From contig CADBRU010000011.1 in the NCBI GenBank assembly GCA_902797165.1, positions 1-61,467 of the forward strand: a DNA stretch of 61,467 bases, written 5' to 3'. Made by a program: the position numbers and the translations under genes. Below the pieces are notes generated by a model that was not told where the DNA came from, searched no databases, and worked only from the letters and a program-made list of their open reading frames with translations. Positions 11,745-60,684 of this stretch are shown in pieces (positions within the stretch are counted from its first letter, which is position 1; each line of letters begins with the position of its first letter). The DNA is from an uncultured Elusimicrobium sp. (GTDB lineage: Bacteria > Elusimicrobiota > Elusimicrobia > Elusimicrobiales > Elusimicrobiaceae).

Positions 11745-11831
11745 TTTTTTAGAATAGTAGTTATAAGAGTCGTCATCCTCGGGGCTGCAAAGCAGCAACC
11801 GGGGATCCATAAATTATAAGGAAAAACAACT
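11745..11831 (+). repeat. Partial copy of a dispersed palindromic element
   Basis: About 85 bases match 24064-24152 closely: a TTTTTTAGAATAGTA lead-in, CGTCATCC, then GGGGCTGC-AGCAGCAACCGGGGATCC and AAAACAAC. The central CCxxGGGGCTGC/GCAGCAACCGGGG part can form a hairpin. The right end (GGGATGAC) found at 24 kb is absent. The remaining 11832-11914 holds no gene that can be supported; a faint 'GAGAAAATATG' may be a decayed pilin start. Confidence 0.65.
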
Positions 11832-11914
11832 CTGGGTGAGAAAATATGTAAAGGCTTAGCAGCGCAAGGCAATGGTTTCTTTGCTTGTGAAGATTGTTAA
11901 TTAGTTTATTAAAT

Positions 11915-23370: not shown

Positions 23371-23925
23371 GTGTTAAAAATTTTAGCAAAAGCAGCCGTT
23401 TTGATTTTAATTGTACTGAGTGTCTATTTTATTGTACACCCACAAGCCTGTTCGAATATGCTTGCCGGTCGGCAAACACGACAGGGGGCCCCATCCAATG
23501 ACAATGAATTAACTCATCCCATGTCAGAGCCTCAGCCCAGTATTACGGATAAGTCTCAACAGGGAATCTTGGATCGGGACGAATTGTTTAATAAACCGGC
23601 AGAGCAAGAGCCCACTCAACCGAGCACTACAACATCCGCCCAACCGGTACAACCTTCTTTCTCTCAAGAAGACATTGATTATGCCGTGGCAAGCCGCTAT
23701 GTGGAATTGGAGCGGGAATATACCCGCACCAAACCGCTTACACAAGAGGCCTCTTCCGAATTATCCTATATGGTGATGGATGATTTCGGTATGTCTCCGG
23801 CAGAATGGCAAAGTTTTATGGCGCGCGCAACGGCCAGTGGACTCTTTGAGAAAGCCCGCCGTGATTTGCCTCCGGATACAAATATAAATACCTTTGCCAG
23901 ACCCGAAGCATCACCTACCAAATAG
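23371..23925 (+). CDS. Membrane-anchored protein of unknown function, Pro/Gln-rich linker
   Basis: The 184-residue protein starts with GTG after GAGGAGG. It has an N-terminal membrane helix (residues 5-22), a low-complexity Pro/Gln/Thr/Ser linker (~50-95) and a helical C-terminal part with 'ELSYMVMDDFGMSPAEWQSFMARATASGLFEKARRD'. It is the last gene of the envelope operon and is followed by a terminator. Size and layout match its upstream neighbour, so the two may interact. No family is recognised. Confidence 0.58.
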   Translation: MLKILAKAAVLILIVLSVYFIVHPQACSNMLAGRQTRQGAPSNDNELTHPMSEPQPSITDKSQQGILDRDELFNKPAEQEPTQPSTTTSAQPVQPSFSQEDIDYAVASRYVELEREYTRTKPLTQEASSELSYMVMDDFGMSPAEWQSFMARATASGLFEKARRDLPPDTNINTFARPEASPTK

Positions 23926-24048: not shown

Positions 24049-24079
24049 TTGACAAACACAGTTTTTTTTAGAATAGTAA
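24049..24079 (+). promoter_or_regulatory. Promoter of the pilin gene at 24218
   Basis: GACTTGACA with TTGACA at 24049-24054 is followed by a T-tract. A weak -10 (TAGTAA at 24074-24079) follows 19 bp later. The GACTTGACAA block also precedes the pilins at 47834 and 60087 on the other strand. Confidence 0.45.
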
Positions 24080-24194
24080 TTGAAGTAAGGTCCGTCATCC
24101 CTGGGGCTGCGTAGCAGCAACCGGGGATCCATAAGTTATAAAGAAAAACAACCTTTATAAAAAACTGGATCCCGGGTCCACGCCCGGGATGACA
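24064..24194 (+). repeat. Palindromic mini-element in a pilin leader
   Basis: The segment runs between promoter and ribosome site. It has ends CGTCATCCC (24093-24101) and GGGATGAC (24187-24194) in inverted orientation, an inner hairpin GGGGCTGC-GTA-GCAGCAACCGGGG, and a second hairpin ATCCCGGG/CCCGGGAT at 24169-24190. Its left part recurs at 11745-11831, and similar ends occur at 60604-60684. No reading frame is carried, so it resembles a MITE or REP-type element. Confidence 0.6.
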
Positions 24195-24217
24195 AATTAA
24201 ATAAAAGGAGAAAATGT

Positions 24218-24703
24218 ATGAAAAAAGGTTTTACACTTATTGAACTACTGGTGGTAGTTCTTATCATCGGCATCTTGTCTGCCATTGCTTTGCCGCAATA
24301 TACCGCAGCCGTGGAAAAAAGTCGTGCCGGTGAAGCACTTGTTATTTTAAAGCATGCCCAACAAGCACGGATGATAGACTATTTGCAAAATCCGAATGCC
24401 CCCTCTACCCCAAAAGATATTATGGAACTAAGCGGCGGTACATGGAGAGCGGACGGAGGAGCGTATTGTACTAAGAATTTCCGCTATGCCTTTGATGATT
24501 GTACGGTAGCGGAAGCATATCGTTGTATTCCAAAAGCCGATTGCAGTGATTGCCAGAATGACACTGAATATGAAATAAATCTATTTAATCCATTTTATGG
24601 AGAAGATTGGGAATCTGAACACTATTGCGCTTATTCCACTGATTTAGGTCATAAGGTTTGTAACGGACTGGCCGGACAAGGTTTTAATATAATTGAGTAT
24701 TAA
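24218..24703 (+). CDS. Type IV pilin-like protein, subfamily A
   Basis: The 161-residue prepilin, MKKG|FTLIE, has Glu5 and 'ALPQYTAAVEKSRAGEALVILKHAQQARMIDYL'. The globular domain has 'IMELSGGTWRADGGAYC', a Cys-rich centre (CIPKADCSDC) and the C-terminal 'STDLGHKVCNGLAGQGF' shared by subfamily A. The leader is about 140 nt long because of the palindromic element. Ribosome site AAAGGAG. A terminator follows at 24727. Confidence 0.9.
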   Translation: MKKGFTLIELLVVVLIIGILSAIALPQYTAAVEKSRAGEALVILKHAQQARMIDYLQNPNAPSTPKDIMELSGGTWRADGGAYCTKNFRYAFDDCTVAEAYRCIPKADCSDCQNDTEYEINLFNPFYGEDWESEHYCAYSTDLGHKVCNGLAGQGFNIIEY

Positions 24704-26568: not shown

Positions 26569-27591
26569 TTATTTCGGAAGTCTTCCGGCCAGTATTTCCG
26601 CTATCGGGCGGGTATGTTTAATTTTGCTGAGTACGATTTTTACGGAAGCGGTAATAGGTACCGATAAGAAAGCCCCCGGTATGCCCCATACAAGCCCCCA
26701 AAAGATTAAAGAAGCAATTACGGTCACGGGATGCAAATCCATCCCTTCTCCCATCAGATGCGGTTCAATTAAACTGCCGATAATAAATTGCGCCGCAGTA
26801 AGTAGGGCAATTACCACCCAAAAATGAGGTTCAAATCCGTATTGTAAGAACAGGACAGGTGTGGGCAGTAAAACCGCGATAATAGAGCCGATACTGGGAA
26901 TAAAATTAAGTAAGAAAGTAAACAGGGCAAATAAGAACGCCAATTTGACGCGGAAGAACGCTAAAATCAGCCATACCACTACCGCCGTTACCAAAGAGGT
27001 GCTGATTTTAACCGATAAATATTTGGATACATGGGCCAAAATTTCTTGCACGGTAGCATTGGATGATTGCGCCGGAATCAATTTTTTCTCTCCGATAAAT
27101 AGGAAAATAATGAACAAAATAATTAGCGTGGTGTTGGAAATAACGGAGAAAAGTTGTTTCCCGAAATTTTGGAACCAATTCAGTAGCGGCAATTCGCGGA
27201 TGTAATTAAGAATAGACGCCTGATCTAATTCGATGCCGTGTTGGGCCAGTTTATGCACCAAATCGGCCGTTGTGCTAAGCAAATTATCGCGGTACATTTC
27301 CGCTCCTTTGAGAAATCCGCCCACGGAGTTAATCGTAAAATACACTATGCCCGAAAAACACAAGACAAAACACAGCACGGAAACCGTCAACGCCAGCCAA
27401 GCCGGGAAAGAAAGTTTGCGATGCAACATGGCGGTCATTTGAGCCAAAATGATATAGAAGAATATGGAAATAACAAGCGGAATCATTAAGGCGCGCGTAT
27501 AAATCAATACCGCCGTAATCACTCCCGCCGCGATAATGGACAGACAAATAGCACTCATTTTTTGATAATACCAACTGGTTTTATCTACCAT
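26569..27591 (-). CDS. AI-2E transporter family membrane protein
   Basis: The 340-residue protein has about eight membrane helices. The family pattern is seen in 'FLLNFIPSIGSIIAVLLPTPVLFLQ' near residue 235 and 'LIEPHLMGEGMDLHPVTVIASLIFWGLVWGIPGAFLSVPI' near 280. Family members include TqsA (autoinducer-2 export) and Na+/H+ antiporters, so the substrate is open. It is the last gene of a four-gene minus-strand operon that begins at 29778, with 1 base between it and the previous stop. Confidence 0.85.
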   Translation of the reverse strand: MVDKTSWYYQKMSAICLSIIAAGVITAVLIYTRALMIPLVISIFFYIILAQMTAMLHRKLSFPAWLALTVSVLCFVLCFSGIVYFTINSVGGFLKGAEMYRDNLLSTTADLVHKLAQHGIELDQASILNYIRELPLLNWFQNFGKQLFSVISNTTLIILFIIFLFIGEKKLIPAQSSNATVQEILAHVSKYLSVKISTSLVTAVVVWLILAFFRVKLAFLFALFTFLLNFIPSIGSIIAVLLPTPVLFLQYGFEPHFWVVIALLTAAQFIIGSLIEPHLMGEGMDLHPVTVIASLIFWGLVWGIPGAFLSVPITASVKIVLSKIKHTRPIAEILAGRLPK

Positions 27592-60086: not shown

Positions 60087-60575
60087 TTACCGCTCATCGT
60101 ACGTTTCAAAACCTTGTCCTTCTAATCCTTTGCAAACTTTATATGCAACATCTGTTGTGGCAGCACAGGTCTTGGCGTTCCAATTTTCTCCATTATGCGG
60201 AGTTTCCAAATATATATCATACTCATATCCATTTTTACAGCCGCTACAATCCGCTTTAGGTGTGCAACGATAAGCGTCTAAACAAGTAATATCTTCGAAG
60301 TAATAGAAAAAATGATTAGTGCAATATGTCCCTCCAGTGTCACCCCACTTCCCGCCACTTAATTCCATAATATTTATAGCATCTGAGGCATTGCCAACGC
60401 CATTTTCCATAGCCTCCATAATACGTGCTTGTTGTGCATGTCTTAAATTTATCAGTGCTTCTGTAGCACGGCTTTTTTCCACCGCAGCGGTATATTGCGG
60501 CAGCGCAATGGCAGAGAGTATGCCGATAATTAAAACTACTACCAATAGTTCAATTAACGTAAAACCTTTTTTCAT
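60087..60575 (-). CDS. Type IV pilin-like protein, subfamily A
   Basis: The 162-residue prepilin is MKKG|FTLIE with 'ALPQYTAAVEKSRATEALINLRHAQQARIMEAM'. 'IMELSGGKWGDTGGTYC', 'CTPKADCSGC' and the C-terminal 'ATTDVAYKVCKGLEGQGF' make it subfamily A and close to the pilin at 24218. The start at 60575 follows AAAGGAG; an upstream start would add 12 charged residues to the leader. A palindromic element lies in its leader. Confidence 0.9.
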   Translation of the reverse strand: MKKGFTLIELLVVVLIIGILSAIALPQYTAAVEKSRATEALINLRHAQQARIMEAMENGVGNASDAINIMELSGGKWGDTGGTYCTNHFFYYFEDITCLDAYRCTPKADCSGCKNGYEYDIYLETPHNGENWNAKTCAATTDVAYKVCKGLEGQGFETYDER

Positions 60576-60603: not shown

Positions 60604-60684
60604 GTCGTCATCCCGCAATGTTTCTGTGCGGGATATAGTGTCGTTTATTTATACCCCGCACTACGACCCTGCGGGGTGACGGAA
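60604..60684 (-). repeat. Palindromic mini-element in a pilin leader
   Basis: Outer ends CGTCATCCCGCA (60606-60617) and TGCGGGGTGACG (60670-60681) are inverted copies. Within lie two hairpins: ATCCCGCA/TGCGGGAT (60610-60634) and ACCCCGCA/TGCGGGGT (60653-60677). It sits between the promoter and ribosome site of the pilin gene, as the 24-kb copy does. No reading frame is carried. Confidence 0.6.

Follow-up and report, generated by a model that had tools for sequence, protein, structure and literature searches.

The window analysed here, a contig of 61,467 nucleotides (C11) from the draft genome of an uncultured Elusimicrobium sp. (G000; 1.31 Mb, 33 contigs), raises the question of why a long palindromic element should stand between the promoter of a type IV pilin gene and its ribosome binding site. 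The element follows a TTGACA/TAGAAT promoter and precedes the AAGGAG of the pilin reading frame 24218-24703, whose sole Pfam match is the N-terminal methylation motif; CGTCATCCC begins it at 24093 and GGGATGAC finishes it at 24193 (Table 1). The sequence-only reading of this locus had described inverted ends and hairpins within the pilin 5′ leader, and these are indeed present as two arms. Its span of 24064-24194 does capture the element but starts too early, 24064 taking in the promoter spacer. The RNA fold of the element (-50.3 kcal/mol, z -6.0) was equalled by none of 200 shuffles, and Rfam, searched over the window in gathering and E-value modes, returned tRNAs only, with no credible match at the element. 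Copies 88% identical to it lie on contigs C26 and C27 of the source genome, and the TTGACA/poly-T/TAGAAT layout of 24049-24074 recurs in other pilin leaders there. As a separate observation, the promoter spacer of the window pilin is short, 14 nt (24055-24068), and the poly-T tract between -35 and -10 has 12 T in 55 of 62 promoters of the element-richest relative (G006, 1.1 Mb) and 7 to 15 T in the nine promoters found in the source genome; the variation in the latter might possibly reflect slipped-strand phase variation.

Table 1. Features at the three element sites of the window
Feature	Position	Strand	Basis
Predicted pilin promoter: TTGACA, poly-T spacer, TAGAAT	24049..24074	+	called by eye
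Whole palindromic element, type I, one long arm, CGTCAT...ATGAC	24093..24193	+	sequence and pattern match
Promoter-side arm, long type, with its own inner hairpin	24094..24131	+	pattern match
AT-rich spacer, partly self-complementary (TTATAAAG / CCTTTATAA)	24132..24165	+	sequence, fold
Pilin-side arm GTCATCCCGGGCGTGGACCCGGGATCCA	24166..24193	-	pattern match
Ribosome binding site AAGGAG	24205..24210	+	read in sequence
Type IV pilin, 161 aa, N-terminal methylation motif	24218..24703	+	PF07963, E 7e-08
Promoter-side half of a type I element	11771..11830	+	87% identical to 24086-24152
Pilin 3′ remnant joined to the half element (LGEKICKGLAAQGNGFFACEDC, then stop)	11834..11900	+	translation of C-terminus
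Second element, type II, in leader of minus-strand pilin	60606..60681	-	fold -38.1 kcal/mol, z -6.8
Pilin downstream of second element, ATG at 60575	60087..60575	-	3′ end from the sequence-only reading's coordinate and the reading-frame length

The same reading had placed a second element with similar ends in the leader of the pilin at 60087 and a half copy near 11745. The former is where it was said to be, its ends as in the first element and its arms different; the half copy exists also, beginning at 11771 and not at the position proposed. This half element continues directly into the last pilin codons, so that the stretch 11771-11900 is the leader of a pilin whose body has been lost through internal deletion. 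A second remnant that joins a leader to a pilin 3′ end occurs on another contig of the source genome (C10:7562, L007). Since the half copy adjoins a pilin C-terminus, all three sites in the window are pilin leaders.

These elements belong to a repeat family. The 9-mer CGTCATCCC by itself is not enriched in the window (nine matches with at most one mismatch, 7.65 expected). The arm pattern GTCATYSC..GSRATCYA, however, matches the source genome 18 times and G006 76 times, its reversed control neither of them, and the whole-element pattern has 206 matches among 66 genomes of the genus compared with 11 for reversed-pattern controls; 23 of the 66 genomes are positive. BLAST with the window element against 41 genomes found close copies only in the source genome (12) and G006 (33), with a single weak match each in G002 and G037. 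By reading the sequences we sorted the elements into types, whose names I to V are our own: type I has GGACATGG/GGGCGTGG arms and CCAG tails, type II has CCGCA..TGCGG arms and ATATA tails, type III has CCCCGA..TCGGGG arms, and types IV and V are looser relatives found in pilin leaders. Type I elements usually have unlike arms, forming a heteromorphic pair. Across 23 type I elements, 98.6% of cells in the two local arm hairpins are paired (columns 4-11/18-25 and 72-79/86-93), and compensatory changes occur at three pairs in eight cells, a cell count reached by none of 500 shuffles. A single long rod is the minimum-energy RNA fold, yet it shows no compensatory pair against the three of the local hairpins, and we reject it as the conserved structure; what has been conserved is therefore each arm by itself, as with REP units. 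All genomes compared are draft assemblies whose contigs frequently break within elements. In the source genome, contigs C6, C7, C10, C14, C15, C26 and C27 start or stop inside one, so the repeats limit assembly and some of its pilin loci cannot be joined.

The family is located at pilin 5′ ends. The pilin N-terminal motif has 133 matches in the source genome (1.31 Mb) and 140 in G006 (1.1 Mb); the genes that carry it are mostly single, each with its own leader. In G006, a PF07963 start follows no more than 400 nt downstream for 36 of 43 type I elements. Five of the remaining seven (C16, C68, C105, C115, C142) are cut by a contig end and show a pilin leader or promoter, and two (C52:3979, C133:4721) are truly elsewhere, so that 41 of the 43 copies are at pilin 5′ ends. 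Judged by crude gene calls in the window, 23% of intergenic bases are upstream of pilins, and 31% of the intergenic bases within 300 nt upstream of any gene are pilin-upstream; at 30% the binomial probability of 41 in 43 is 2e-19. The enrichment at pilin leaders suspected from the window alone is thus real, and a random distribution does not describe the copies. All 12 BLAST matches in the source genome (E<=0.01) are pilin-linked, eight adjoining a pilin or remnant and four cut by a contig end beside a pilin-type promoter. Two single-arm pattern matches there (C17:4837 and C26:1533) lie away from pilin 5′ ends, and we set the latter aside as looking like chance. Among the other genomes of the genus, 37 of 62 examined elements have a pilin core at most 420 nt downstream (p 2e-6 against 31%, the more generous of the two baselines), the share being high in G063 (5/5), G011 (6/7), G048 (4/5) and G058 (4/5) and low in G061 (4/11), G065 (2/5) and G043 (1/6). 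In G025, from another family of the order, one of 14 elements is upstream of a pilin; this genome carries a distinct 77-nt CGTC dimer family (L263-L276) with 32 copies at ordinary intergenic sites. Around 98 pilins of G006 we counted 52 elements in 30,732 nt upstream, none in 45,957 nt of mature coding sequence and five in 22,485 nt downstream, four of these immediately upstream of the next pilin.

Two niches can be distinguished at these 5′ ends. In 49 of 81 element-bearing pilins a Shine-Dalgarno sequence and ATG stand between element and pilin, and the element is therefore part of the 5′ UTR or lies further upstream. The other 32 have no such start after the element, and here the palindrome is read in frame through the prepilin leader: the pilin frame is open through the element in 29 of the 32 (it is closed in L133, L145 and L182), the other two frames in 3 and 5. 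An in-frame upstream Shine-Dalgarno sequence plus ATG precedes 25 of them, as in L028, where MNKKETPNYAVIPDMAPGSSPFTRKNNFYKNLDSVSTPAMTTKTK is joined to AFTLIELL. These 25 leader peptides measure 38 to 80 residues, and a loose similarity threshold groups them into 14 clusters. Removal of the type IV pilin leader by prepilin peptidase is well established, and leaders encoded by the palindromes would presumably be cleaved likewise.

The leaders, moreover, do not follow the pilins that they precede. In G006, elements 96-100% identical stand before pilins with variable regions 22-42% identical (40 best pairs), and over 406 pairs the identity of the elements is unrelated to that of the variable regions (r = 0.07). 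For pairs with elements at least 95% identical among 17 UTR pilins of G006, segment identity is 0.88 in the promoter, 0.84 from promoter to element, 0.97 in the element and 0.75 from element to pilin core; it falls to 0.59 and 0.55 within the pilin body, and beyond 110 nt upstream it is 0.52, the random baseline being 0.51. We take these profiles to demonstrate that leaders move independently of pilin bodies, and we infer that they have been copied between pilin loci, perhaps by recombination, carrying the elements along. A counterpoint is that promoters are also under constraint and that copying is read from identity profiles. Element-less leaders are homogeneous as well (0.84 and 0.80, with the body at 0.56-0.60); homogeneous leaders are therefore the rule, and constraint may account for some of this homogeneity. 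Whole pilin genes, too, come and go at one slot. The slot between the conserved gene at 23371-23925 and the convergent permease at 26569-27591 was scanned via this upstream gene in the 30 best of 66 genomes; of 27 usable loci, counting that of the window, six carry a pilin there and the rest none. The six pilins are all unrelated, those of the other five genomes differing from the window pilin. A base-level empty site sought at the slot via the same gene was not found, the slot pilins being all different. The search for an orthologous empty site via the neighbouring PTS gene met no shared synteny in seven relatives; the named relatives found through that gene belong to the Elusimicrobiaceae or Elusimicrobiales, and several of these assemblies come from the gut of ruminants or other herbivores.

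We propose, as a fairly probable account of these observations, that CGTC-REP-like, REPIN-shaped repeats are tolerated in a product that is later thrown away, and that they spread along with pilin leaders undergoing exchange. The elements are a family of short non-autonomous palindromes of gut Elusimicrobiaceae, built of two inverted CGTC-tagged hairpin arms around an AT-rich spacer, that accumulate at the 5′ ends of the very large pilin family of this genus. They would be transcribed within the pilin mRNA, either before an intact ribosome site or in frame in the leader peptide of the prepilin, a part that prepilin peptidase is expected to cut off. Both sites would then be discarded before the mature pilin, so that insertion might be tolerated there and not in the mature gene, and this tolerance is likely to be the cause of the location. 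Within a genome they might spread mainly by copying or exchange of the promoter-leader block among pilin loci, without the body, while the original insertions would come from a putative mobilising activity. The many non-pilin copies in G043, G061 and G065 count against this explanation, as do the three leader-peptide candidates closed in the pilin frame and the lack of a clear target duplication at ends and flanks.

A rival that we consider improbable is direct transposition to a hot spot, in which a trans-acting transposase would repeatedly target pilin 5′ ends that share a target or an accessible single-stranded state. It would explain why types I, II and IV occur at the same position of the G006 leader and why several distinct sites are used, namely the UTR, the leader peptide and positions upstream of the promoter. 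Y1 transposases, present in 13 of the 66 genus genomes, occur in 8 of 23 element-bearing compared with 5 of 43 element-free genomes (Fisher p 0.048). However, neither the source genome nor G006 has a Y1 match, and in a transposase search that covered Y1, CGTC arms were near none of the 13 fetched loci; we have rejected a RAYT/Y1-mobilised REPIN, given this absence of the same arms and an association that is weak. In L099, L105 and L210 the palindrome is flanked on either side by AFT, a motif of the pilin processing site, possibly as a target duplication, which would favour transposition. The ends and flanks of the elements otherwise show no clear duplication, and the target-site duplications that the sequence-only reading suggested looking for are not consistent, by eye, at the junctions listed. 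At odds with transposition, the left flank is co-inherited with the element (0.84 versus 0.64), and orientation is biased, the CCC arm pointing towards the pilin in 24 of 35 pilin-linked type-I-like elements, copies that are non-independent; both are as copying would predict.

Regulation at the RNA level, suggested from the position of the elements in the leaders, would mean that the 5′ UTR hairpins are retained to control stability or translation of the pilin mRNA. The five elements that were folded are very stable (-38 to -58 kcal/mol, z -6.8 to -8.0), the 49 of 81 cases with an element upstream of an intact ribosome site have the required arrangement, and UTR copies are mostly in one orientation. 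We nevertheless regard this possibility as unlikely. The same promoter serves many element-free pilins, with 22 short against 29 long leaders in G006; the subtypes are interchangeable, different ones occupying the same position; about a third of the copies are inside the leader peptide and not the UTR; the arms are equally well kept in the dispersed copies of another family; and copies with the same ends occupy ordinary intergenic sites in other genomes. Any effect of the elements on pilin expression is one that we infer. Passive hitch-hiking, by which the elements would multiply through duplication of whole pilin genes, accords with 133 and 140 pilin N-termini in genomes of 1.31 and 1.1 Mb and with the gain and loss of pilins at one slot (6 of 27 loci), but we disfavour it as very improbable, given near-identical elements before pilins of 22-42% variable-region identity. 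That the hairpins are chance products of composition, as the unenriched 9-mer might have hinted, is refuted by the reversed-pattern controls for both arm and whole element.

Returning to repeats tolerated in, and spread with, the pilin leader, our findings suggest that this leader is a safe harbour for such repeats and possibly an exchange point for surface-fibre genes. One could go further and suppose, at what we consider a low probability, that the leader is an exchangeable cassette, about 130 dispersed pilins swapping promoter-leader blocks by recombination seeded at the CGTC palindromes. If true, surface variation would here need no silent locus: bodies would be swapped behind promoters, and palindromes lying in frame would do no harm, since the leader peptide is removed. 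Mobile palindromes have usually been described as scattered and as preferring the 3′ ends of genes; what is new here is that they concentrate at the 5′ ends of one family of genes, that a cleavable leader is used in frame, and that leader and body move independently. Palindromes read through in a peptide that is then cut off would be a clear example from nature of repeats in a protected niche. They would also explain the odd N-terminal extensions of 40-80 residues in predicted pilins of these gut bacteria and the breaks of draft assemblies at their pilin leaders.

The resemblance to MITEs or REP-type repeats, noted from the window alone, stands on the inverted REP-like arms, the heteromorphic pair and the high copy number. 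The closest match is with the CGTC-tagged REPs: the present elements share the terminal CGTC (or TGTC) beside the stem, a stem (8-9 bp here) that begins with AT pairs, and head-to-head dimers with spacers, often heterodimers. The unpaired CCA tail of those REPs is found here in type I and is absent in types II and III. Loops, 4-5 nt with exceptions mentioned in the accessible text of Di Nocera et al. (2013, PMC3733652), are 6 nt here in type I and about 9 nt in types II and III. Because of the longer loops and the missing CCA tail in types II and III we call the elements CGTC-REP-like and assign no family number. According to the same portion of that source, CGTC repeats lack a dedicated transposase, in agreement with the Y1 results here, and some REP copies lie in frame in diverse genes, as some of the present elements lie in frame in pilin leaders; the position of REPs is mostly downstream of genes and not, as here, at the 5′ ends of one gene family; Rickettsia RPE-4 and RPE-6 and Neisseria dRS3 are counted as members, and the string Elusimicrobi- does not occur in it. 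In the accessible parts of PMC3733652 and PMC10969869, Rickettsia RPE-1, RPE-4 and RPE-6 are palindromes in frame within functional genes, the trait seen here in the 29 of 32 open leaders; they differ in that they reside in many unrelated genes and are retained in the protein, while here they lie in the cleavable leader of one family. REPINs, as far as the available text of PMC3116915 describes them, are likewise inverted REP doublets with hairpins and a spacer that act as a unit, but they go with RAYT transposases and GTAG-type REPs, a link not seen at the 13 Y1 loci here. Searches of an open-licence library on Elusimicrobia pilin expansions, palindromes in prepilin leaders, REPs upstream of pilins, and CGTC repeats with pili turned up no description of the present arrangement. 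The nearest parallel to the pilin link is offered by Neisseria dRS3 and NIME, CGTC-type repeats by pilin loci: in the accessible part of PMC3898611, meningococcal pilS loci lie within arrays containing dRS3 that are proposed to promote recombination. Those arrays are dense and intergenic, whereas the present elements are single dimers in leaders of pilins with their own promoter, and the dRS3 pattern ATTCCC N8 GGGAAT is not seen here, the interior of the type III arm being longer. With pilS in dRS3 arrays as the parallel, the Elusimicrobiaceae elements point to a testable link between REP-type repeats and the variation of surface fibres.
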